This document shows positions 14,810-58,127 of a stretch of 64,000 nt of DNA, piece by piece. Under the pieces are notes generated by a model. The model had not been told where the DNA came from. It made no database searches and saw only the letters and a program-made list of their open reading frames with translations. Origin of the DNA: Paragonimus westermani. Lineage: Eukaryota; Platyhelminthes; Trematoda; Plagiorchiida; Troglotrematidae. The first letter of the stretch is position 1. The number at the start of each line of letters is the position of its first letter. Location of the stretch: NCBI GenBank assembly GCA_008508345.1, contig QNGE01000998.1:107236-171235 (forward strand). The letters run 5' to 3'. The position numbers and the translations under genes were made by a program.

Positions 14810-15955
14810 GTAGTTTTCAATTTTTAACCACTCTCCTATCCCTGCATTCTGTACAGGTAGGGGGGGCTATATCTCATCATCCTCATTATCATAGATAACA
14901 ACACCAGTGGCTTTCACACGGATATTTAACCGTCATACAAGTCCTAACAAAGAAGCAACAGGAAAAGAGGGAGTGGCGCTCAATCCGAATTCATACGTGC
15001 AACTTCAAATTGCGTATGCCTTGCACACAATATCCGAGCTGTTAGTGTTACTCATTGGTCGTCTGGCAGATTTGTCAAGTTAAGAGAGCTCAACTGTACG
15101 AAATCGGCTTCGGCTAAATTCAAAACAGTAATGCTGTCTGTTGGAGTCTTGCTGAAAAACCAAATTTTGCGAAATTGCATCATGTTTGTGCCGTAAGAGA
15201 AACTAAGGCGTCATTTGCAAATTAGCCCTTTGATGAACGACTTCAATTCTCTGCCACAGCTCATCATTTGTCCACTTCATACCTTATACCAATCTTCCGT
15301 GGCATCACAACCTGATCATTGCTCACAAGCGAGAGTGGTTGAGCGTTCAGATTTGATGATTCGGTCGTGCCTAATGTGAGGTCAATGGCGCAGTGGTTAA
15401 CACGGTTGCCTCATGATTGGAATGTCCGGAGTTCAAATCCCGGCCGTGGCAAGGATATGCACTACTGACGAGCTCTAATGAGAGCGAAACTCGAGTCTAG
15501 TGCTTCTTTTCGAAAGAGGCTGGCTGGAAAGTCTATCTGAATGCGAACGCTGCGATCAAATGTGAGTGATGGTCAACTTGAAAATAAACCAAATCCCCGA
15601 CTACTCACCAGCATCACAAAGAGTTGTTCGATGTGATAGACAACTATTTGGCACATAAGGCTGTGCATACCTAAAGATCGAGCAGATGAATTCGTTTAGT
15701 GGAAGTACTTGTTGCTTTGTGTGCGACAGCTGACTGACTCTTCGGTCCAAGGGTCCACATTTTAAAGGACGCTGACAGATATCGAAACACACTGTAGCAG
15801 CGTGTAACGGTCGGTGGTATGCGTGCATCTCATATTGATTCTTTGTGTGTCTTACCCTACATATCCAAATTGAGTTGCATTTGGCTGAATGATTCGTTTC
15901 AACATTTTCCATCCAGATTATTATCCTTTGTTCTCTTTCCCACGACTCTCTACAG
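14810..15955 (+). other. Intron 4 (1.15 kb) carrying a SINE
   Basis: Begins gtagtt and ends with a long pyrimidine tract, cacgactctctacag. It contains the complete SINE at 15379-15618 in sense orientation. The 125-codon minus-strand frame over 15601-15978 overlaps the SINE tail and exon E and is regarded as a shadow. Confidence 0.55.
15379..15618 (+). repeat. Full-length tRNA-derived SINE (reference copy)
   Basis: The best-preserved copy. The 5' part has a Pol III type-2 promoter: an A box within atggcgcagtggttaacacg and a B box within ggagttcaaatcccgg, whose flanks ccgg/ccgg can form the T-arm stem, as in a tRNA. The anticodon stem pairs poorly, so it is a tRNA-derived head rather than a working tRNA. 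A tRNA-unrelated body of about 130 bases follows (gagctctaatgagagcgaaa through ggtcaacttgaaaa) and then a tail aaaccaaatccccgactact ending near cagcatcaca. The same tail occurs inverted at 21803-21854, defining the 3' end. At least three copies in the window make it an active or recently active family. Confidence 0.85.
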
Positions 15956-21802: not shown

Positions 21803-21854
21803 TGTAATGCTGATGAGTAGTCGGGGATTTGGTTTATTTTCAAGTTGACCATCA
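21803..21854 (-). repeat. Inverted 3' tail of a SINE, broken at N
   Basis: Reverse complement of the SINE 3' end: attttcaagttgaccatca ends at 21854, preceded by the complement of the aaaccaaatccccgactact tail. It faces the next SINE copy head-to-head across the single N at 21855. Confidence 0.85.
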
Positions 21855-21855
21855 N

Positions 21856-21978
21856 TACTGACGAGCTCTAATGAGAGCGAAACTCGAGTCTAGTGCTTCT
21901 TTTCGAAAGAGGCTGGCTGGATAGTCTATCTGAATGCGAACGCTGCGATCAAATGTGAGTGATGGTCAACTTGAAAAT
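21856..21978 (+). repeat. SINE copy 3, 5' end lost at N
   Basis: Starts at tactgacgagctctaatgag directly after the N and ends ggtcaacttgaaaat. It lacks the tRNA-like head. Its body is almost identical to copies at 1-156 and 15379-15618. Confidence 0.88.
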
Positions 21979-24900
21979 TAAATCCTTTGATTGGACGAAT
22001 GACACTGCTGGCCACACAGTCGACCTTTTTGAGTGGCGTATTAACGAGTGCAATAATTTGTTCCTTCAAACACGAATTGACTGAAATGTCGGATTGCAGG
22101 ACTTTTCGTGACGATGATGACTATGCAGCAGTTTATGGTATCGTTTCACGGGCTTCTCAAAAATGCCAAGCTAACCGGCAGTCACCACATTGGCGCGTCT
22201 GAGTATTTGGCTACCACGCCCAATATGGCTGTCAACTTCTGGTTTCGGTTGTTCGCACAGCATGGTCGTGGTGTGTTCCTATGAGATGAAATATGGTGGT
22301 CAGTTATGGTTTGCTTTCGCACGCACTGAACATGAAGTCTGGTTAGTTCATCTTCATATCTTATTCAGTGACTCACTATGCATCACCGTAGGGACTGGTT
22401 GCGTGCACTCGATTCCGTTGTTTCTTCACATTCGGTGTAATCTCATGCACAAATACGTGTTCTAAGTTATTTGTTAACTCTCTTGGTGTCATTGGTATTG
22501 ACGGCTTTTCGCACTGCTGATGTGTACCAAATTTAGAGAATTAGATGTTTCAATTTAATCAGACTGCACCTTGTAACAGGGAGGCTTAAGTATGATTCTC
22601 TTCGTGTCTGTACGTCGGTCAATTTCAACTGGATGGGTCAGAATTGATCAGTTATTGTTCTTTGTTACTCCACCCGGATTTATGTTCAAAAACCCTTCGT
22701 TCACACCTTGGGATTACTAACACGTACACCCAACCCACGCGATAAGTTGGTCCCCTCGCCAACTCACCACAGTTGACACTGACTTCCTAGAACCTGCCTC
22801 TGGCTTATGGGCATAACCACGACGCAGTCGTATCTGTGTTTCACCCAATCGTCTTGCCCTCGTACTATTTTTGATCAGTAAATTTCCTTACTGTTATATG
22901 ATGTGCTATATGACTGTACCAGCTCAAGATGAGAGTTTATCGAAAACAGTTCTGTTCGCCAAGAGGACAAGAATTGTTTTACGTGAGTTCCTCGGGGATT
23001 TCCAATTATGTTCCATCGTGCACATTTTGCGAACTCCACTACAGTGTGTACTATCTATCAGTTTGCCCCGAGATCCTCCTTAATGTGACTTCACAATGTT
23101 CATAAGAAACAGTCTCAATTTTTATCGGCAATATATTTCAGCTGTGCACATCGTTACTTTTTAGTAAACAGAGGAGCGAAACAGACTTTATCGTGCTGTT
23201 TTGTTCACTCACGTCAGAGTGTTTGTGAGATGTCTGAACTCATTGCCCATCTCAATATTTGAGGATGTGATTATACAGCAAACGAAAATAGCGGATTGCC
23301 TCAACGTTATCTATCATTCAAACAACGTTTTACTCTAGTCCAAATAATTTAACACAAGTGGAATGTCCTGTAGTTTATATGTCAGATTTATTGCCCACTC
23401 AAAAAATAACTTCTAACTGGTGTTGCCAGTTAAGCCCTAGAAGTAAAGCTGCAAAATTCTAAAATTATTTTGGGCATTTCAGCATACATTATGATTTATT
23501 ATATTTTTAAAAAACGACAGTATTTTATTTTTGTTATTCAATTGAGGAAGTCTGACAGTTGTGCTTTTGTTTCGTTGCATTTTGAGGGTTGGATTGTATA
23601 TCAGCGTTATCCAGACCTCAAGCCCTGATAAAATGTTACCTGATCTCCTATAATTTGTAAAAATCACTATTAAATTTTATGGGGTTTCAATGTAGCTGGC
23701 TACTATCAGGAGCTTGTTAGTTAGATTGTGTAACTAAATGTAGCAACCGGTTAGTGAAAACACGAATGGTTGAGTGTGATGAGGGGTACAGGCAGCCGTA
23801 GTGCATCGTTCAAACGGACACTCAGAGTTAATCATAGAATGTTTCCTTAATTTGTCATTGTGCTCCGCTAAAGCATGTTCAGTAGCAAGCTTACAGTGTT
23901 TCAAACGGGGTAATGATCTTCTTGGTCGTACGAGTTGTCTAGGTTCGTGCGTTGTTACAGGAAGGAGAAACATCTTGTGCGTTACTGTCACCGTGTGATC
24001 GATTTATATTTGTAGGGAAAGGTTGACTGGAAACAAACTAAAGGAAACTAGTGAAGCTGCTGGCTGTAGACATAACAGCAACGAACAGTGAAATGACTGA
24101 AACAACGTCCCGTCAGATTTACACATTCAGTGACCTGTGGGACTGATCCATAGAAGAGTAGTTAGGAAAATTGTAGCGCAATTTGTCCCTCACGTAGGTG
24201 CTGATCAATTGAAAGTTTAAAACACTCAAACGATTCAGTCGTAACCACAGATTTTGACAGTGTGCCTCAGTGTAAAACATACCTTAGTTGTGAAGCAGTT
24301 CTTTCTGCAAAAAGATCTCTTATTCTAGAACCCACTTCCAACAACTGACCACTCAGACGTTTATCCTTGTTAATTGAGGGGAGTTGTGTCAAGTTCTGTT
24401 CGTCGCATGATAAGAATTGGAACAATTAGGCATATTCAAAGAAAGTGGTCGGTGTCGTTTCTGAAAACATGTCGCATGAAAAGTAACTAGTGTTGAACTT
24501 GGCAGAGGGTTTCAGAAGGCAGATGGAAAATTCATCACCAAGATTAAGCGCTATTTTAACAAAAAAAATAGAGATCGAGTCAGATGAAAGAGGAACATCT
24601 GTGCTTCCAGCTGTAATTTCTCAGACGAAAGAACAAGGCGTCCTTTGTTCAAAATCGTGTTCACATGGCCATCACATTTACACCTCACTGTTTAAAGAAG
24701 AGAGAGGCGGAATAAGACAAGAAAGACTTCCTCTCACAGGGAATGCGATTATGAATAATCGGCAGGACGAGAGGCTGACCCCATTTTCCAGAACGACGTG
24801 AACGAAGGAATCGTTGATGGCTTAGGTGACGTCATTGCAACATACAGCTGTAGAGGAATTATAGCTCGCTGGCTGTTGAAATGTGTTTGACATTTTGGCT

Positions 24901-26544
24901 GCAACAATTCCGTATTCTATGCCATACGAAACAGGCTTGTGCTGAAAACTTATAGAAAAAGCGGTCATCGCCTTTAGAGCTGGAAATAGTCATCTCCACT
25001 AACAAATTTACAGAAGAAATGGTTTTTGCTAAGCGTCGAGTTGGTGCACTTTTGCTTGTCGCTTCTTTTTCCGATGTTTCTGTATCTGACTTGGTCGTGC
25101 ATCCTGAATAGTATGAGCCACCGAGACTGATGTTGGAAAAAGACCAAACCTCATTTAACGTGTTGTCATTTTAATCGTTATTTTTGCGAATCAACCGTTT
25201 ATACTATCATATGCTGCTACCCATGTGGAAACTGCATAAAAAGAGCTTTATCAGTGTAACTTAATCAAAACTGGAACAGGGAGTTGGAATTTCACATTTT
25301 TAGGTCATTATTTTGTAAACTGGATTAATCTGACTGAAACCTTATTTAGTGAAAACTCGAATGCGCACATCGATTTGGCTCCAGAGGCGTCGCGCTCAAG
25401 ATTACACGTGCGAACACATGAAGTTACACAGTTAATCAGTTCGAAGAACGGCAACTCGGCCTTTACAGTGGCTGAAAGCTGGCGACCAGGAAATACTATG
25501 TGATCGGCGTACGAGGGCGAGTACAATTTGATGTTAGTCTAGAAAGATAAAGCTTGTTAAAATGATCTTCAGGAGTGCCAGTTCGAACCGTCGGTTTTAG
25601 GGAGGAGACATTTCCGGCGATTCGAACAACTTGGTAGTAAGGCGCCTTCCACTGAAGGGCTGCCTCATCAACACTCCATTTTCTGGACATTTTTGATGCC
25701 CTGAATAATGCCGGATACATTTGCGATTTGCAACGACGTAATGTACAAAGTCGGGAATCGAAAATATAACTATCCAAAGCTTCTAAATACACAGGAGGTC
25801 TCACTTACATTAAATTAAACTGTACCCTAGATTTACTGAGGGGCCGCAACATCTCCGGGGCCGGTCCACCTTCGTACATCCCACTGACGTTGACCTCACC
25901 AATGTTGGCAGTAATTTATACCAAGATTATTATGTTACTGGCGAGTAGTGTGATCGTTACGTTAATTTCGAGATATGCGAGAAACATCTGATCATCGCAT
26001 AATTGTCCAAACAATAGGTCTGCACTCCCAGGCCTCGCGTGCAGTCTATCATCTTAGTTAATAATGTGATTAGCGTGCATTTCATTTTTATCATCTCAGA
26101 CTCTGACAAATTTGCTTGGTTTTTCTGTTGGCTTTCGTTCACTCCTGATGAATTATGTTTGAACTTGTTAAATTGCCAACAGCCCGCGATACTACTGATT
26201 TCCTTCATGTGCGTATGGTCCAAGACACAATACCTGAAGATTCACATAGTTATCCTCTTTTCATCTGCTGCATCTAGTTACGACTTTTTGTTGGTATGTC
26301 TCATCTAGATTAATGTCGGATATAACTGATTTACCAATCAAATTGATTTTTAATTTCTTGCCAGTTGTTCTTAACCTGTGAATTTTTAAGAGGTGTACAG
26401 CAAAACAGAAGCACTGATGTGAAAGAACACACTATTTCTTAGGCTAATAAAAGTGCACGAGTTCGATCGGACTATGACACGAGACAAACCACAAAAATCC
26501 TTGGGTTGTTTGTTAACATGTGACATTAAACGCGAACAGTGCAT
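21979..26544. other. 4.5 kb without a supported gene
   Basis: No recognised gene or repeat. Frames that read somewhat like protein but lack splice or family support are plus 21987-22202 (contains TFRDDDDYAAVYGIVSRAS), plus 24490-24801 and minus 25496-25804 (103 codons). None is called. Confidence 0.35.
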
Positions 26545-27058
26545 CACTTACGCATCAGCTTCTGCAGCGTTCGGGTTCATTTCTCTTTGGAACAAACTCA
26601 AGTGCCCCATTAGTGGAGCTACGTTTCAAACACTTCTACGGTTGACACTCAGTCGGAGGTTTGCTATCGATCAGATAGCAAAATGGATGTGGATTTGGCA
26701 CGGTCTTCTGATCATGGAAGACGTAGAGGCGGTCAGACAAATAACAAGATAGAACTTCAAACACGATGTAATCAGACCGTCTAATAGAGTGATCGGCCAC
26801 TGTGATCAAATGAGCACACTTCCTCTATGCGCAGCGATAACTAACGCAGCCCACAGATTGTTAGCACGTTAGGGGTCGGCAGTAGGCCAGCAGAGGTGTC
26901 CACTACGATCATGCATGCGCACGTTAAGCCGGTTCGTAGCACACAATACCGGCTATTTGCATCTGTCGGGTGATTTTCATTCAAGATGAAGATTCAAGAA
27001 ACGTTGCCCACACCCGTGGATACTATTACCTCTTCGTGGTTCTGGTTTTACAACCGAA
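26545..27058 (+). repeat. Left arm of perfect 514-bp inverted repeat
   Basis: Each base from 26545 to 27058 is complementary to the base at 54564 minus its coordinate, with no mismatch or indel found in a line-by-line comparison. The first bases are cacttacgcatcagc. The arm carries no recognised gene; the 99-codon frame at 26453-26752 runs across its start. Confidence 0.95.
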
Positions 27059-27505
27059 TACATAAGGTTACCACATCAAGGTGGCTGGAGTTCAAATCTC
27101 TGCTGTGCTTTGTACTGACTAAACCCTACAGGTTCAAAATTGAAGCCTTTTTAAAAATGTCTAGTTATATTACTCTGCGAATGTACGGTGGTAGAACTGA
27201 CTTAGAAATTTTTGTTTGGGAAGTTGCAGAGGAAATGCGTTAAACAATATTGTATGTCAGTGAACTCACTGCAAACAGTCTTTTAGTTTGCAGACGCTTA
27301 GTCACCAGCTCGTCCAATTTCTCTGAGGAGAGTCGTAGAAACCGTCATTTTGAAGCCAGTGAATCATTTGTGATAAAGGTGCATACACAACTGCTTATCT
27401 AAATGGTAGAGCCACTGGATGACGGGATAGAATGAAGGTATGGGCTGTACATTATTTAGAGTTCCAACTAGCGCAAGCCTGAATGAAAATCATACGACAG
27501 TTGTG
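27059..27505. other. 447-base loop between inverted arms
   Basis: Unique spacer. Near 27090 it holds ggagttcaaatct, resembling the B box of the SINE head. Its last bases (27481-27500, gaatgaaaatcatacgacag) repeat a 20-mer of the right arm (27582-27601) with two differences. Confidence 0.7.
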
Positions 27506-28019
27506 TTCGGTTGTAAAACCAGAACCACGAAGAGGTAATAGTATCCACGGGTGTGGGCAACGTTTCTTGAATCTTCATCTTGAATGAAAATCACCCGACA
27601 GATGCAAATAGCCGGTATTGTGTGCTACGAACCGGCTTAACGTGCGCATGCATGATCGTAGTGGACACCTCTGCTGGCCTACTGCCGACCCCTAACGTGC
27701 TAACAATCTGTGGGCTGCGTTAGTTATCGCTGCGCATAGAGGAAGTGTGCTCATTTGATCACAGTGGCCGATCACTCTATTAGACGGTCTGATTACATCG
27801 TGTTTGAAGTTCTATCTTGTTATTTGTCTGACCGCCTCTACGTCTTCCATGATCAGAAGACCGTGCCAAATCCACATCCATTTTGCTATCTGATCGATAG
27901 CAAACCTCCGACTGAGTGTCAACCGTAGAAGTGTTTGAAACGTAGCTCCACTAATGGGGCACTTGAGTTTGTTCCAAAGAGAAATGAACCCGAACGCTGC
28001 AGAAGCTGATGCGTAAGTG
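27506..28019 (-). repeat. Right arm of perfect 514-bp inverted repeat
   Basis: Exact reverse complement of 26545-27058. Flanking sequences beyond 28019 and before 26545 are unrelated, so the match ends sharply. Confidence 0.95.
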
Positions 28020-28769
28020 GTGAATTTGAGTGGGTGTTACGTCATAGGGTAAGGCTCTTGTCACGGGGTTATGACTGATAATGTTTGGGCTGCCGCTATG
28101 GAAGTTGCGATAACTGAACTGGTTTTCCTTCAGGGAGCAGTGGTTAAAGTTGCGCAACCTGACTGCAGTTTGTTTCACTCGTCATCACCTAGGGCTATTT
28201 GACTGTCTTTATTTGTTTGGTTGCAAACGTAAATAACTGTTGGTCTCTATGCAATGATTGGTGTTAGCAGGATCTGTTACAATAGAACTGTTAACTAATT
28301 TTCTCAATCGCTTCCAGTCTAGATTGGATGATATTCTCTACTCCTTTTTAATAAGCTCTGGATCGTGCTACCCACCTGCTTTGCAGTACAGCAACAATGG
28401 CGTGCAAACGGGCACATGAGCATTGGTTTGATTGCGGTGTGGTAGATTGTCTTTCTAGTCTATGCTTCCTAACCACATTGTATTTAACCAACTCCGTTAG
28501 GTGATCCATTGAATGGTACGCTTGAGCGATGGGTAAGTGCGTCAGTTAGATTAGTCTGCAACAACTTTTCCTTTAAAGGAAAGTTTTATAAGCATCACAT
28601 TCTTTTCAAAACGGAAATTATCCAATGTGAACGTTCACCGATCATATTCGCTGTGATGAATTGCTCCGATTGATTGTTTATCTCGATCTTTTTTGAACTA
28701 TCTTAAACTATTGCTCCACCGTGTTATCCGAACCGATTTTTCCTGCTGTTAGTTTCAAGTTTCCAGCCA
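28020..28769. other. No clear feature between inverted repeat and PLE relic
   Basis: Contains the minus-strand frame ending at 27951 and otherwise no coding signal. The distal part of the minus-strand PLE relic would be expected here but cannot be read; no GIY-YIG core was found. Confidence 0.35.
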
Positions 28770-43100: not shown

Positions 43101-44274
43101 GTGTTGTAAGAAGGTATGTAGATTTGATCTTTTAAGCTGCTACGCACGCAGTTCTCTTCCATACCATCTTACAGCTGATGAATTAACCATTCTTTTCAGT
43201 TTCTGTTCTGAATTTGCATGCTGATAACTGATCGCCACTCCGAATTGAATAGAGCCAACTCCAACTCGGCACATTTAAAACGAGTAATGGTGGGTTGCTG
43301 GGAAATGATTGGAGTATTCGTCTCTTTCATACACATGGCTCCAGGATGTTGGTTTTCAGTCTATCTCATATAGCCATCCCATAGTGATCTGATAAGCTGA
43401 TTAACTGACGCTTGTAAAACGCACATTGCAGACCCACAATATTCTATGAAATGAAAAACAATGGATGCCTGCGTGAAGATAATTCGAAAAACGACTGGGG
43501 TTGATCTCAGCTTTCACATTTGGACAGCCATTTCGATCAGTCCCTTCGAAAAGAGGCACTAAACTCAAACTTAACTTTTGTTTGATCTCACTAGTAACAT
43601 GGTGACCGCTGCTGTGGACTCGTGTGTTTTCCTGATACAATCGCGCTGACTGTATACTAGACAATTTGAATGCTTGAAAACATTCGTTTGCGAATGATAT
43701 TTATGTTAATCACTCACATTGTGAATAAACGATAGCAGTCCTTTCTATTCCTATGGCTAAGATTTTTCATTGGAATGATATTTACAGGGTTCTTTAAGCA
43801 TTCTAAATAACACTTTTATTGCTGACCAGTGTTACGAAATGTAGCCGTTATACAGTGGACTTCAGTCAAAACTGATTGTTATTTTCCTAACTCTCGTAGA
43901 CGTTTCAGGAAACTCTTTTCGATAAAAAGCATCAGATATAAGTGTCTCATGTTAGAATTTCGTACGGTAAACGATTACCATTGAATTTTGTAGGTGTTTT
44001 GCAAAGCAAATCACTTTTACACATATTTCTAATAATAACCTATGATTTTCCCCAAGACTGCCGAAAGGAATCAGCCGGATGTTAATCAGATGTCTTGCTA
44101 TGTGTGGCTGATCCACATTTCGCAGATGATTGTAGGCTGATACTGTGATATCACCGTGTTACAGCGGAATGCAATTAAGCTGCTCAAAGTTGCCGCTAGA
44201 TTGGACGAATTAGTAATAACGTTCAGCGATGGACAATGATATTTTGCTTTAACGAAAGGGGATTTACAAAGTGT
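37118..44274. other. 7 kb with no supported feature
   Basis: AT-rich sequence with scattered short frames. The most protein-like is plus 37749-37946 (FLQEHIVDLSMIKQQLV), followed by hydrophobic frames at 37959-38210 and 38211-38456; none has convincing splice sites. A 17-base match to the SINE 3' end (caccagcatcacaaaga) occurs near 39631. Confidence 0.35.
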
Positions 44275-44283
44275 AAGCGATAG

Positions 44284-44459
44284 TTGTAAGATATCCGCAC
44301 CAAATGTAGTACGAATGAAGTTGAATAGTTTGGGCGTCGTGTTTAACATGTTATTGATAAACAGATTGGGAATAACACAACGTTTCGAGCAAGTTGTAAT
44401 ACTCTACGTTTCAACCACCTCGGGTGACCTTCCTCAGGAGTGTTGTAATCGAAATCTCG
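44284..44459 (-). mobile_element. Small PLE-like element with hammerhead-like core
   Basis: A 176-base insertion flanked by a perfect 9-bp target-site duplication, aagcgatag (44275-44283 and 44460-44468). On the minus strand it reads ctgagga (44437-44431), a 7-bp stem (ggtcacc/ggtggtt) with a 3-base loop, then gaaa (44412-44409): the order and spacing of a hammerhead ribozyme core up to stem III. A related sequence occurs as an inverted dimer at 52679-52955. The same strand can be read as PEEGHPRWLKRRVLQLARN, so it may derive from the end of a coding element. PLEs are known to carry hammerheads, and short non-autonomous retrozymes depending on them have been described in animals; assignment here is inference. 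Confidence 0.6.
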
Positions 44460-44468
44460 AAGCGATAG

Positions 44469-47400
44469 AATCAAACATATTTTCTTGGTTATCCCGTTTG
44501 CGGTGAGAAATTGTCTGAAACTGTGATCTGCTTGTATTTGCATGGGTTGACTATGCGCCTTTGTGCCTGATTGTTTCTTGACCCTGATCGTTTTCATGAA
44601 ACCGTTCGGAAGGGTACACTATGAGTGAACTGAGGATGAACGATCACACTAGGCTACTCGTTAGCGTAGGCATACACGTGGGTACGGAGTTATCCGAGAA
44701 AAAATACAAAAAAACATACTGGAATGTACTCGGTAAGGAAATGATGTTTCTTCCCGTCGATGAAATTGACACTGAAAACCGTAACTTACCGGGATAACTG
44801 TTATGTGCAAATGTGTTAGTGTTTGGGAGTGGTTTTGAGACATATACGTTCTGTGTTGATATTTCGAATACAAAATATTTTTGTCATCCGCATCCTTGGC
44901 TCACAAAAGTACACACTAACGTGCGACAAACAAGTGACGGGTACATTTGCAAAAAGGAGCATGTACTTTCATTCTACTGCAGTATTCTGATAATCCAATT
45001 GTTTAAGTGCATTGGTTGGTGTTTTGAAAGTGTGCTCCAATTCTGGACTTGAATTCGAATGCTAGTTGTGTCATTACATCATTTTCTAAATGACTGTCCA
45101 GACTGGGCATATCCTGAACCTGAAAGTGTATTGTGCATGTTGAAGTAGTTAGTTTGGCTAGAAGTAAGAATGTTTCATAAGGAGTGAGAAATTTGACGGA
45201 AGGTCCTATTTTCTAGTATTCAGCCTTCCTTGAGAAGACGGTAGTTCATTGAGGGATGTTTTGGGTTACATTACCTATCTGTACGATCTTCCACGGAGAC
45301 GTTGAGCAACGCGTAGCGATAAACCAATGATCCGAACTATTCAAAACAAGATTGGATCGTAATACCACGGTACTATTGAACAAATTATCGAAGTGAATAT
45401 TTGGACAACCTCAACAGTTTCGATCGATAGATCGTTTCCGGGGAACGGGTTGCAATTTGCTGCTGAACGGGCTAAATATGAACTATAATAACATAGTAAG
45501 GCATTCATACTCAAAAAAGCTCTTCCGAGCAGTCAACAGGTTCAAAACAATGGGGATGAGCCGAGCTCCACAAAAGGGGGTGCACGCACCACTCAAGTAA
45601 AGTACAATGACCGACAACTGACTATCCACACAACCATCAAATTGACGTGACAAAACAAAATCGTCTAGGTCAAGGTCCAACTAACGTCCAGAAACAGGGG
45701 AGGTTGAATGCAGAGGGGTGAATATTTAGGGGAATTGGGTTGGGTCGGATTTTCACATGACTGTAGTTCAAAAATTCGATACACTATCGAGGTGTGTTTA
45801 TTAGACCGATTATGGTATCTCGTGGCTCACAGATGAGTTTTTTTTTAATTTTCACAGTCCCGCATGACATGACAGCAACCTTAAGTAGTTAGCTCATATT
45901 GTTGACTAGCCATCCAACTGTACATATTCAAACATTTTTAGTTAAACAAAACAGCCTTACGATTATTCACGCACGAACTTCGTCTTTATAGCTGTCGATG
46001 TGCGTGGTGTAATTGGCAAATATCACTGTGGACAGTCACTGCTAATTCCTATCCACACATACCGGTAGCCAGAATGTATGCTGTGCAGTTATGAAGACAG
46101 AGGTGCATGTTGAATCGGATCCGGTTTTTAGTAGCCAGAATTTGTAGAGCATTTATATCAGCCAGGATGTTCTTAATGTCTATCACATTTTCTGTTGTTT
46201 GCTAACTTCTAGCATCATCGGCTTACAATAGCTGAGGGAATTTGGCAAAATGTGAGAGGTCCAGCCCAAACGAAATTCTGGAATCCCTTGACACATCGGT
46301 CGAACAGTACGAATTTAGAGGTGCACCGTTCACGTTGACACTAAAATCGTCATCTTGCCTGCAGTTGGCTAGCTATTTGCTAATAGGATTAATCACAGTT
46401 ATATGTAGATTTTGTTGCACACTCCTAAATAGCCTCTCGGTCAGAGACTTTCGATCAATACGGAAGAGAGCATTAATTGCTTCGAATTCACCAATCGCTT
46501 TATCACTTCCGTCCTGGCGTCAAGTAGAATGGTACTGCACAACTATCTACTTCGAAGTTCACGATCATTTTTGGACAACAGTTTAAATAGAACTAACCGC
46601 CCTTGTAGCTGACCAACAAACAAATTCATTACGAGCTGTGATTTAATTGACAGTTATATGGCCGGCCATTAAGATCATCTTCAAAGGTGGATGACACTGT
46701 GCGTGCCCTTCACGTTTTTGGGAAGTTTGTCAGTCCTGAGGAACCAGATTAAACAGTTTGCATACTGGTCTTGGACATAATTTTGTAGTATCAGTTTTAG
46801 GACAACAGTGAGTTTTGGACCTGTGGACACGCTATCAAAGTGTTGATTCTGTAATACGTCGACATCGATCTGTAACGCGTGGACCCTAGAACCACTTCTC
46901 ACTATCATATGTGAACGACGAGTCGATATCGATCGAAAGAATGGTTAAGACCAAATAGTTTGTGACGCTGGTTGATCAACCCTTCCAGGTACCAACGGTT
47001 GGAAATAGCAATGAGGACAGTGGTTTAATACGGTAATAAATGAAACGGTAACATGCGAGATAAGTGTAACAAAACTTGATTGCGATTCCTCATGAAAACG
47101 TTGAGCAAGCAGAACTAACAGGTAAAATAATACATAGCGTCCAGTGAACACTGAAGAGTGTAATAAACGCAGTGGAGTACAGTGTAGCAGTCGGACCAAA
47201 AACGTGATGAATATATAAGATAAACGACGCACTAACATCATTTGGTTACTACGTTGATACGAAACAAAGCCGAGACGAGCTAACAAACAGGGAGTTGCCC
47301 ACTGGATAAGGGAACAGTTTAAAGGGACAACAGGAAACAGATGTCCGTTGAGTTTAGTGAGATTCACTGAATAAAAACCTCCTTTGAAGCTAATAGGAAA

Positions 47401-52667: not shown

Positions 52668-52678
52668 AACGGAATATT

Positions 52679-52955
52679 TTATAGATAAACAGATTGGGAA
52701 TAACACAACGTTTCGAGCAAGTTGTAATACTCTACGTTTCAACCACCTCGGGTGGCCTTCCTCAGGAGTGTCGTAATCGAAATCCATTTCGATTACAACA
52801 CTCCTGAGGAAGGCCACCTGAGGTGGTTGAAACGTAGAGTATTACAACTTGCTCGAAACGTTGTGTTATTCCCAATCTGTATATCAATAACATGTTAAAC
52901 ACGACGCCCAAACTATTCAACTTCATTCGTACTACATTTGGTGCGGATATCTTAC
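52679..52955. mobile_element. Inverted dimer of the small hammerhead-like element
   Basis: A 277-base insertion flanked by an 11-bp target-site duplication, aacggaatatt (52668-52678 and 52956-52966). The left arm (52684-52783) is a truncated minus-strand copy, then two bases (cc), then a plus-strand copy from 52786 to about 52955. The plus copy has ctgagga at 52804-52810, a 7-bp stem (52812-52818 with 52822-52828) and gaaa at 52829-52832. Compared with 44284-44459, one stem base differs (C to T opposite G), which keeps pairing. The 3' end gatatcttac is shared by both insertions, so the element boundary is reproducible. Confidence 0.7.
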
Positions 52956-52966
52956 AACGGAATATT

Positions 52967-57900: not shown

Positions 57901-57939
57901 AACCGTATTGTGTTCCTGTTCGTTTGAACAGCAGTTCGA

Positions 57940-57943
57940 TATA

Positions 57944-57980
<37 letters not shown>
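57940..57980. repeat. (AT)n microsatellite, first block
   Basis: Almost pure AT dinucleotide run with one GT interruption, directly followed by the 52-base unit that recurs at 58076. Confidence 0.95.
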
Positions 57981-57984
<4 letters not shown>

Positions 57985-58032
57985 TGTCGGATGAGAGCCG
58001 AAATATTCAGAAACCTATTGAATGTGACTTGT
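57981..58032 (+). repeat. 52-bp duplicated unit, first copy
   Basis: Starts gcggtgtcggatgagagccg and ends gtgacttgt. It is identical to 58076-58127 and stops at the N at 58033. Confidence 0.95.
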
Positions 58033-58033
58033 N

Positions 58034-58074
<41 letters not shown>
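58034..58074. repeat. (AT)n microsatellite, second block
   Basis: AT run immediately after the N at 58033, similar in length to the block at 57940-57980. Confidence 0.95.
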
Positions 58075-58075
<1 letters not shown>

Positions 58076-58127
58076 GCGGTGTCGGATGAGAGCCGAAATA
58101 TTCAGAAACCTATTGAATGTGACTTGT
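58076..58127 (+). repeat. 52-bp duplicated unit, second copy
   Basis: Identical to 57981-58032 and continuing into unique sequence (cactccttagacc). See the finding on the likely assembly duplication. Confidence 0.95.

Follow-up and report, generated by a model that had tools for sequence, protein, structure and literature searches.

A short, probably PLE-derived insertion with a hammerhead-like motif in Paragonimus westermani and the asymmetric head-to-head arrangement of its relatives

PLE mobilisation is still poorly understood. Minimal PLE hammerheads consist of a CUGANGA core, stem II, GAAA and stem I, with a stem III that is palindromic or absent, and these minimal ribozymes were reportedly the subject of works by Cervera and de la Pena in 2014 and by Luense et al. 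in 2017. Adineta vaga Pen2a has a 9-bp target-site duplication and an inverted pLTR of reduced length, and its pLTR plus tail spans 22 codons (PMC3846280). For the Anolis PLE, both strands are described as cut and extended, and two internal reverse transcription start sites have a spacing that corresponds to the tail; a protein-assisted hammerhead is described as well (PMC11167929). Minimal hammerheads without helix III are described in PLEs (PMC6155905).

Here we describe an insertion, copy A, in a stretch of 64,000 nucleotides of Paragonimus westermani DNA (the window). The best joint explanation, to which we assign a probability of roughly 0.92, is that copy A represents a short insertion from a PLE of the endonuclease-bearing type, made of a pLTR with a minimal hammerhead motif and a 22-codon tail, and that such copies arise by internal priming, often on both strands. 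The element shares with Penelope/Poseidon-type PLEs (Pen2a and Anolis Poseidon PAc) an RT and GIY-YIG frame, a pLTR and an optional tail on one arm (PMC3846280). It resembles Pen2a further in the head-to-head inverted pLTR, the duplication of about 9 bp and the pLTR plus tail to codon 22 (PMC3846280), and the Anolis PLE in the hammerhead motif and the two internal start sites (PMC11167929). By contrast, the tail is about 60-77 nt here and 31 nt in these PLEs, and most of the copies examined here lack a nearby coding region. The arms are asymmetric here, whereas the Anolis study saw no strand difference in start site (PMC11167929). Judged by title and the start of the abstract, none of the open-licence literature on Paragonimus with Penelope or hammerhead concerns this element, which is weak evidence of absence.

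A discrete insertion and its PLE context

Copy A occupies 44284-44459 as a discrete 176-bp insert, and the window reads AAGCGATAG identically on both flanks, over 9 bp at 44275-44283 on the left and at 44460-44468 on the right; an earlier note's description of a 176-bp insertion between perfect 9-bp duplications thus stands. The RNA sense lies on the minus strand, with sense position p at window position 44460 - p. These boundaries are backed by a second copy in the window (52785-52957), which has exactly the same 3' end, and by the 40 scored genome matches, copy A included, whose 3' ends fall at sense 169-176.

The second copy belongs to a paired insertion flanked by CGGAATATT at 52670-52678 and 52958-52966 (12 bp when CAA is counted). 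Its tail-less arm, copy B, lies at 52679-52784 with the RNA sense on the minus strand and lacks about the last 61-65 bases of that sense. The tail-bearing arm, copy C, is full-length, has its sense on the plus strand (52785-52957) and stands head to head with copy B. Copies A and C are 98% identical and have the 3' end TTACAA exactly in common, while their 5' ends differ by a few bases.

Elsewhere in the genome, the same repeat is found behind a coding frame. In locus L056, a 432-aa frame with matches to RVT_1 (E 4.5e-6) and to GIY-YIG (E 0.0045) that score under the Pfam curated cut-offs ends about 150 nt upstream of the repeat. Sequence of the same PLE also lies upstream of the repeat in L062, L063, L065 and L074, the last of which contains a direct partial tandem of the repeat, and the PLE origin proposed in the earlier note is supported by the L056 frame and these sequences. 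L082 covers more of the L055 locus; there, the same RT/GIY-YIG sequence is preceded by a stretch of the public protein model P0121 (from residue 59 to about 165), in a frame broken into pieces; the RT/GIY-YIG sequence ends in a tail-less pLTR, and a tail-bearing inverted pLTR lies at the opposite end. The L082 pieces gave a GIY-YIG match (E 0.0033), the only one among the frame pieces of L062, L063 and L082, and none of these pieces, including the RT piece of L082, gave an RT match. The few long copies viewed were all broken or 5'-truncated, and none was an intact PLE flanked by this pLTR on both sides. The PLE features found are an RT and then a GIY-YIG frame attached to the repeat (scores below the curated cut-off), a repeated or inverted pLTR with an optional tail, and a short duplication.

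From its ATG to its 3' end, copy A encodes MLNTTPKLFNFIRTTFGADILQ, an ATG and 21 codons (44284-44349, minus strand) that correspond exactly to residues 1-22 of P0121 (DEA37_0000839), a 998-aa Paragonimus westermani gene model labelled 'PH domain-containing'. Because of this match and the layout of L082, we read the last 66 bases of the insert as the opening codons of the PLE frame, and the insert itself as a pLTR plus tail. P0121 is thus in part PLE sequence, at residues 1-22 and again from 59 to about 165, probably through a repeat that was absorbed into the gene model; residues 23-58 would also be PLE sequence, and no copy spanning them was found. The 64-kb window encodes nothing of P0121 beyond residue 22, and the P0121 N-terminus had no useful match in Pfam, PDB or viral contigs.

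The window holds other features. An RT frame within it has trematode relatives among its named best matches. A broken frame at 363-1090 resembles a PLE reverse transcriptase by its motifs (SMDIHSLFTNFP..., VYRKLT...); its 363-605 piece had no match among proteins, Pfam or PDB. An inverted repeat with 521-bp arms at 26542-27062 and 27502-28022, 100% complementary and 439 bp apart, is either a recent insertion or an assembly effect, and 57939-58127 comprises two 95-bp tandem units with AT runs and a single N between them.

The hammerhead-like motif

On the minus strand, copy A presents stem I, CUGAGGA, one extra A, a 7-bp stem II and GAAA, which confirms the CTGAGGA, 7-bp stem and GAAA in hammerhead order reported by the earlier note. 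The motif scan and the alignment of copies place the core CTGAGGA at 44431-44437 (sense 23-29). Stem II, GGUCACC-CGA-GGUGGUU, follows the extra A at 44413-44429 (sense 31-47), and GGUCACC/GGUGGUU includes three G-U pairs among its 7 bp. The next stretch, GAAACGUA (44405-44412, sense 48-55), comprises the catalytic GAAA, the palindromic ACGU as stem III, and A17; this self-complementary ACGU is all there is of stem III, which is not closed. The two strands of stem I, located by scan, folds and copies, are AACACUC (44438-44444, sense 16-22) and GAGUAUU (44398-44404, sense 56-62), which flank CUGAGGA...GAAACGUA and form 4 bp plus 2 bp. The AACAC/GUGUU stem I previously considered is unsupported and unconvincing, because GUGUU pairs far better with AACACGACG downstream, in a 9-bp hairpin seen on folding. 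Cleavage is predicted after sense 55, 55 nt before the ATG, as opposed to 26 nt inside the frame in Penelope/Poseidon-type PLEs.

Judged from its letters, the motif is of the minimal PLE hammerhead form: it has the core, stem II, GAAA and stem I, and no closed stem III, and its palindromic ACGU would permit a dimer. It differs from that form in the one extra A before stem II. Hammerheads in which stem III is not closed are reported to be the usual kind in PLEs, and this reading replaces the 'decayed or variant ribozyme' of the earlier note. Scanning the 64-kb window for a core, a stem II of at least 4 bp, a palindromic stem III and a stem I of at least 3 bp returned three occurrences, each a copy of this element; 200 Markov-simulated windows gave an expectation of 0.01 per window, or 0.005 with a stem I of at least 4 bp. 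The Rfam search of 43900-44900, element included, returned no match at E <= 10, so that the relaxed-score hammerhead match by which the earlier note proposed to check its reading did not appear, probably because stem III is not closed.

Rfam does detect a canonical type I hammerhead at another site in the same window. It lies in a second hammerhead-bearing repeat, with copies at 1-156, 15429-15584 and 21803-21979, which may be akin to the Sm-alpha-like hammerhead elements of trematodes. The Hammerhead_1 match at 15459-15503 is above threshold, and weaker matches occur at 19-92 and 21852-21896. Unlike copy A, this repeat has the canonical type I fold at 15459-15503, and it has no sequence match to the copy A element. 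Its head is tRNA-like by eye, ARAGORN found no tRNA there, and the copy at 21803-21979 carries an inverted 3' piece at its front.

Conservation of the copy A motif was measured across 57 copies with a complete core. The core was unaltered in 38 and altered in 19; stem I pairs were kept in 315/332 cells and stem II pairs in 396/406, and no compensatory double changes were seen among these copies. The core diverged at 21/690, stem I at 26/680 and stem II (without position 33) at 16/754, compared with 264/5752 for the remainder, from which two polymorphic columns and those close to the ends were dropped. These figures mildly support constraint on the motif. Whole-copy folds do not favour the hammerhead stems, with a stem I pair probability of at most about 0.02 in copies A, B and C and a strong stem II only in copy B. 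The predicted 3' cleavage product folded better than 200 of 200 shuffles (z -3.0); the corresponding scores of the antisense strand (0.5) and of the whole element (-0.75) are not informative.

An exact search of IMG/VR and GTDB contigs for pieces of the repeat returned no match. Generic PLE-hammerhead patterns returned nothing at first and then 4 Pseudomonas and 34 viral-contig loci, which were rejected: none of the 38 had a stem II of at least 5 bp or a stem I of at least 3 bp.

Ends, arms and duplications of the genome copies

The assembly searched comprises 823,446,929 bases in 9701 contigs. The first look yielded 549 candidates, of which the best 40, copy A included, were scored (93-100% identity to the element); together with the second window locus they make up the 41 loci examined. 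In all 41, the tail-bearing copy ends at sense 169-176, a constancy favoured by the way in which matches were picked, namely for alignment over the whole 176 bp, a choice that would pass over pairs with no tail and any copy whose truncation extends past about position 30. PLE coding sequence lies near the repeat in seven loci (L055, L056, L058, L062, L063, L065 and L074), and 33 of the 40 judgeable loci have no nearby coding region, L071 being excluded from this count as it is preceded by Ns. The earlier note had set against its own reading the joint outcome of no hammerhead match and copies that always extend into a long PLE; given these 33 loci, half of that outcome fails, and the other half, no hammerhead match, occurred. 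The 5' start falls at sense -4 to 11 in 28 of the 33, a clustering that could mark the 5' end of the RNA or a preferred joining point.

BLAST found an adjacent inverted arm in 19 of the 41 loci. The outer ends of these arms lie at 99-116 in 16 cases and at 86, 64 and 42 in the others, and none reaches 150; on copy A, the inner zone where tail-less arms usually end corresponds to 44344-44361 on the minus strand (sense 99-116). Outside these 19, L055, L058 and L062 are also pairs, with one arm longer and tail-less ends at 113, 109 and 101, as is L054, with its tail-less end at 111. Among the pairs examined, none carries a tail on both arms. Inverted stubs were recognised in L047 and L059 by exact match and in L050 by eye; those of L051 and L072 are doubtful. 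In some loci, such as L049, L064 and L070, the joints of the arms overlap at the palindrome TCGA (positions 8-11). Boundaries, duplication, the place of the repeat behind an RT/GIY-YIG frame, the near-constant 3' end and the head-to-head partners with a shorter 3' end can be read in the sequence itself.

Of 31 short loci, a set that leaves out ten complex or long ones and includes L071, which cannot be judged for its Ns, 16 are flanked by an exact duplication of 9 bp or more, as opposed to 0.1% when flanks from different loci were paired. Such duplications flank 12 of 18 loci with a BLAST inverted arm but 4 of 13 without, and three of those 4 are stub loci. Among short copies in which no inverted piece could be recognised, a duplication occurs only in copy A (1/7, or 1/9 with the doubtful L051 and L072). 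The comparison with versus without an inverted piece gave a Fisher p of 0.002, a rough value, since L071 was entered as lacking a duplication and both L051 and L072 as having no inverted piece. Of three long loci viewed separately, L082 and L084 have no duplication, and L085 has only a doubtful 10-bp match within the repeat.

In a tree built from the 41 tail-bearing copies, the branches radiate like a star, none is well supported, and short and ORF-bearing copies mix. The eight rows labelled long (including L060, without ORF) form one clade in 0/200 bootstrap trees, although they cluster more than in 497/500 shuffles. Short copies may well arise repeatedly from PLE RNA.

At position 33, 32 of the 41 tail-bearing arms have T and 13 of the 17 inverted arms with a letter have C; within 17 pairs, nine differ as T/C and none as C/T. 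At position 74, the only other site of common variation (A or T), at most one pair is discordant. Two source pLTRs differing at position 33 would explain the arm bias. L042 contains, at 1090-1673, two copies of the repeat in the same orientation, spaced by 411 bp; they share sequence from outside the element as well, which looks like a local tandem duplication. A repeat of different sequence and the same layout occurs in L086 (1871-2147, reverse complement) and also in L067, with CTGATGA, a 6-bp stem II, GAAACGT and a weak stem I; in L086 its arms lie head to head, one of them alone carries an A/C-rich extension, and the duplication (AATAATTCGTCTCT) spans 14 bp. It is possibly another PLE family.

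Alternative readings and a two-site copying model

The many loci without coding sequence and the clustering of their starts could also point to a stand-alone non-autonomous family, SINE-like or retrozyme-like, with short genes of its own, perhaps circularised by its ribozyme and moved by PLE protein in trans. Animal retrozymes of 170-400 nt, non-coding and with type I hammerhead order as here, are known (PMC7229834). However, the copies end at about 1-11 and 176, off the predicted cleavage site at 55; no permuted or monomer-length tandem copies were seen among the examined loci, the 411-bp period of L042 including other sequence; and the long rows form no clade, despite some clustering. We therefore consider a separate non-autonomous family or small circular retrozyme unlikely, if still to be taken seriously. 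That the hammerhead likeness is accidental, the element being a PLE end without a ribozyme, is quite improbable: the Rfam result, the unfavourable full-length folds and the altered cores would fit such an accident, but the count expected by chance is low, the stems are largely kept across copies, and such motifs are reported in PLEs generally (PMC6155905; PMC11167929).

Copy A, with its clean duplication and without an inverted arm, might also be a solo pLTR, left in the manner of a solo LTR after a full insertion lost its interior when its two direct pLTRs recombined. Such recombination cannot yield head-to-head pairs, and copy A lacks the sequence found ahead of GATTTCG in copies with an ORF, for instance L056 (where it ends CCTCTGTTCCTCTGTCAAGGT), making this origin very improbable. 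A foldback, MITE or MULE-type DNA transposon is scarcely credible: the 9-bp duplication and the foldback-like 52670-52966 recall one, but terminal inverted repeats are absent from copy A, the two arms differ at their outer ends, and the repeat occurs behind an RT/GIY-YIG frame.

We return to a short PLE insertion as the preferred reading. The loci fit a two-strand model with starts at 176 and near 105. PLE protein would bind PLE RNA and begin reverse transcription from a nicked target, at an internal start at about sense 176. The second strand would often be cut some 9-16 bp away and extended on the RNA from the inner site near 105, and the two cDNAs would join close to their 5' ends, at about positions 1-11, to leave a head-to-head pair and a target-site duplication. 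For copy A, only one strand would have been copied, its far end being joined to the other cut. The predicted hammerhead would work on RNA that is full-length or in tandem, probably dimerised or helped by protein, and the inserted copies would derive from uncut RNA. A more tentative extension, on balance doubtful, is that the RNA from the hammerhead to codon 22 is the natural minimal substrate of the PLE protein, with both cut strands copied at once from their own sites (176 and about 105); the copies would then be a self-standing class of trans-mobilised PLE stubs and an in vivo record of two-site, two-strand priming.

The element appears to be a PLE of known type, and the instructive part would be its asymmetric head-to-head footprint. 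For annotation, an Rfam search can miss the minimal PLE hammerhead class, and the public Paragonimus gene model P0121 contains a PLE start. The many short copies with near-identical ends and asymmetric arms match the two start sites seen in vitro for the Anolis PLE. Since the arm asymmetry and the shared ends match this two-site idea, a strand-specific start-site model is directly testable.
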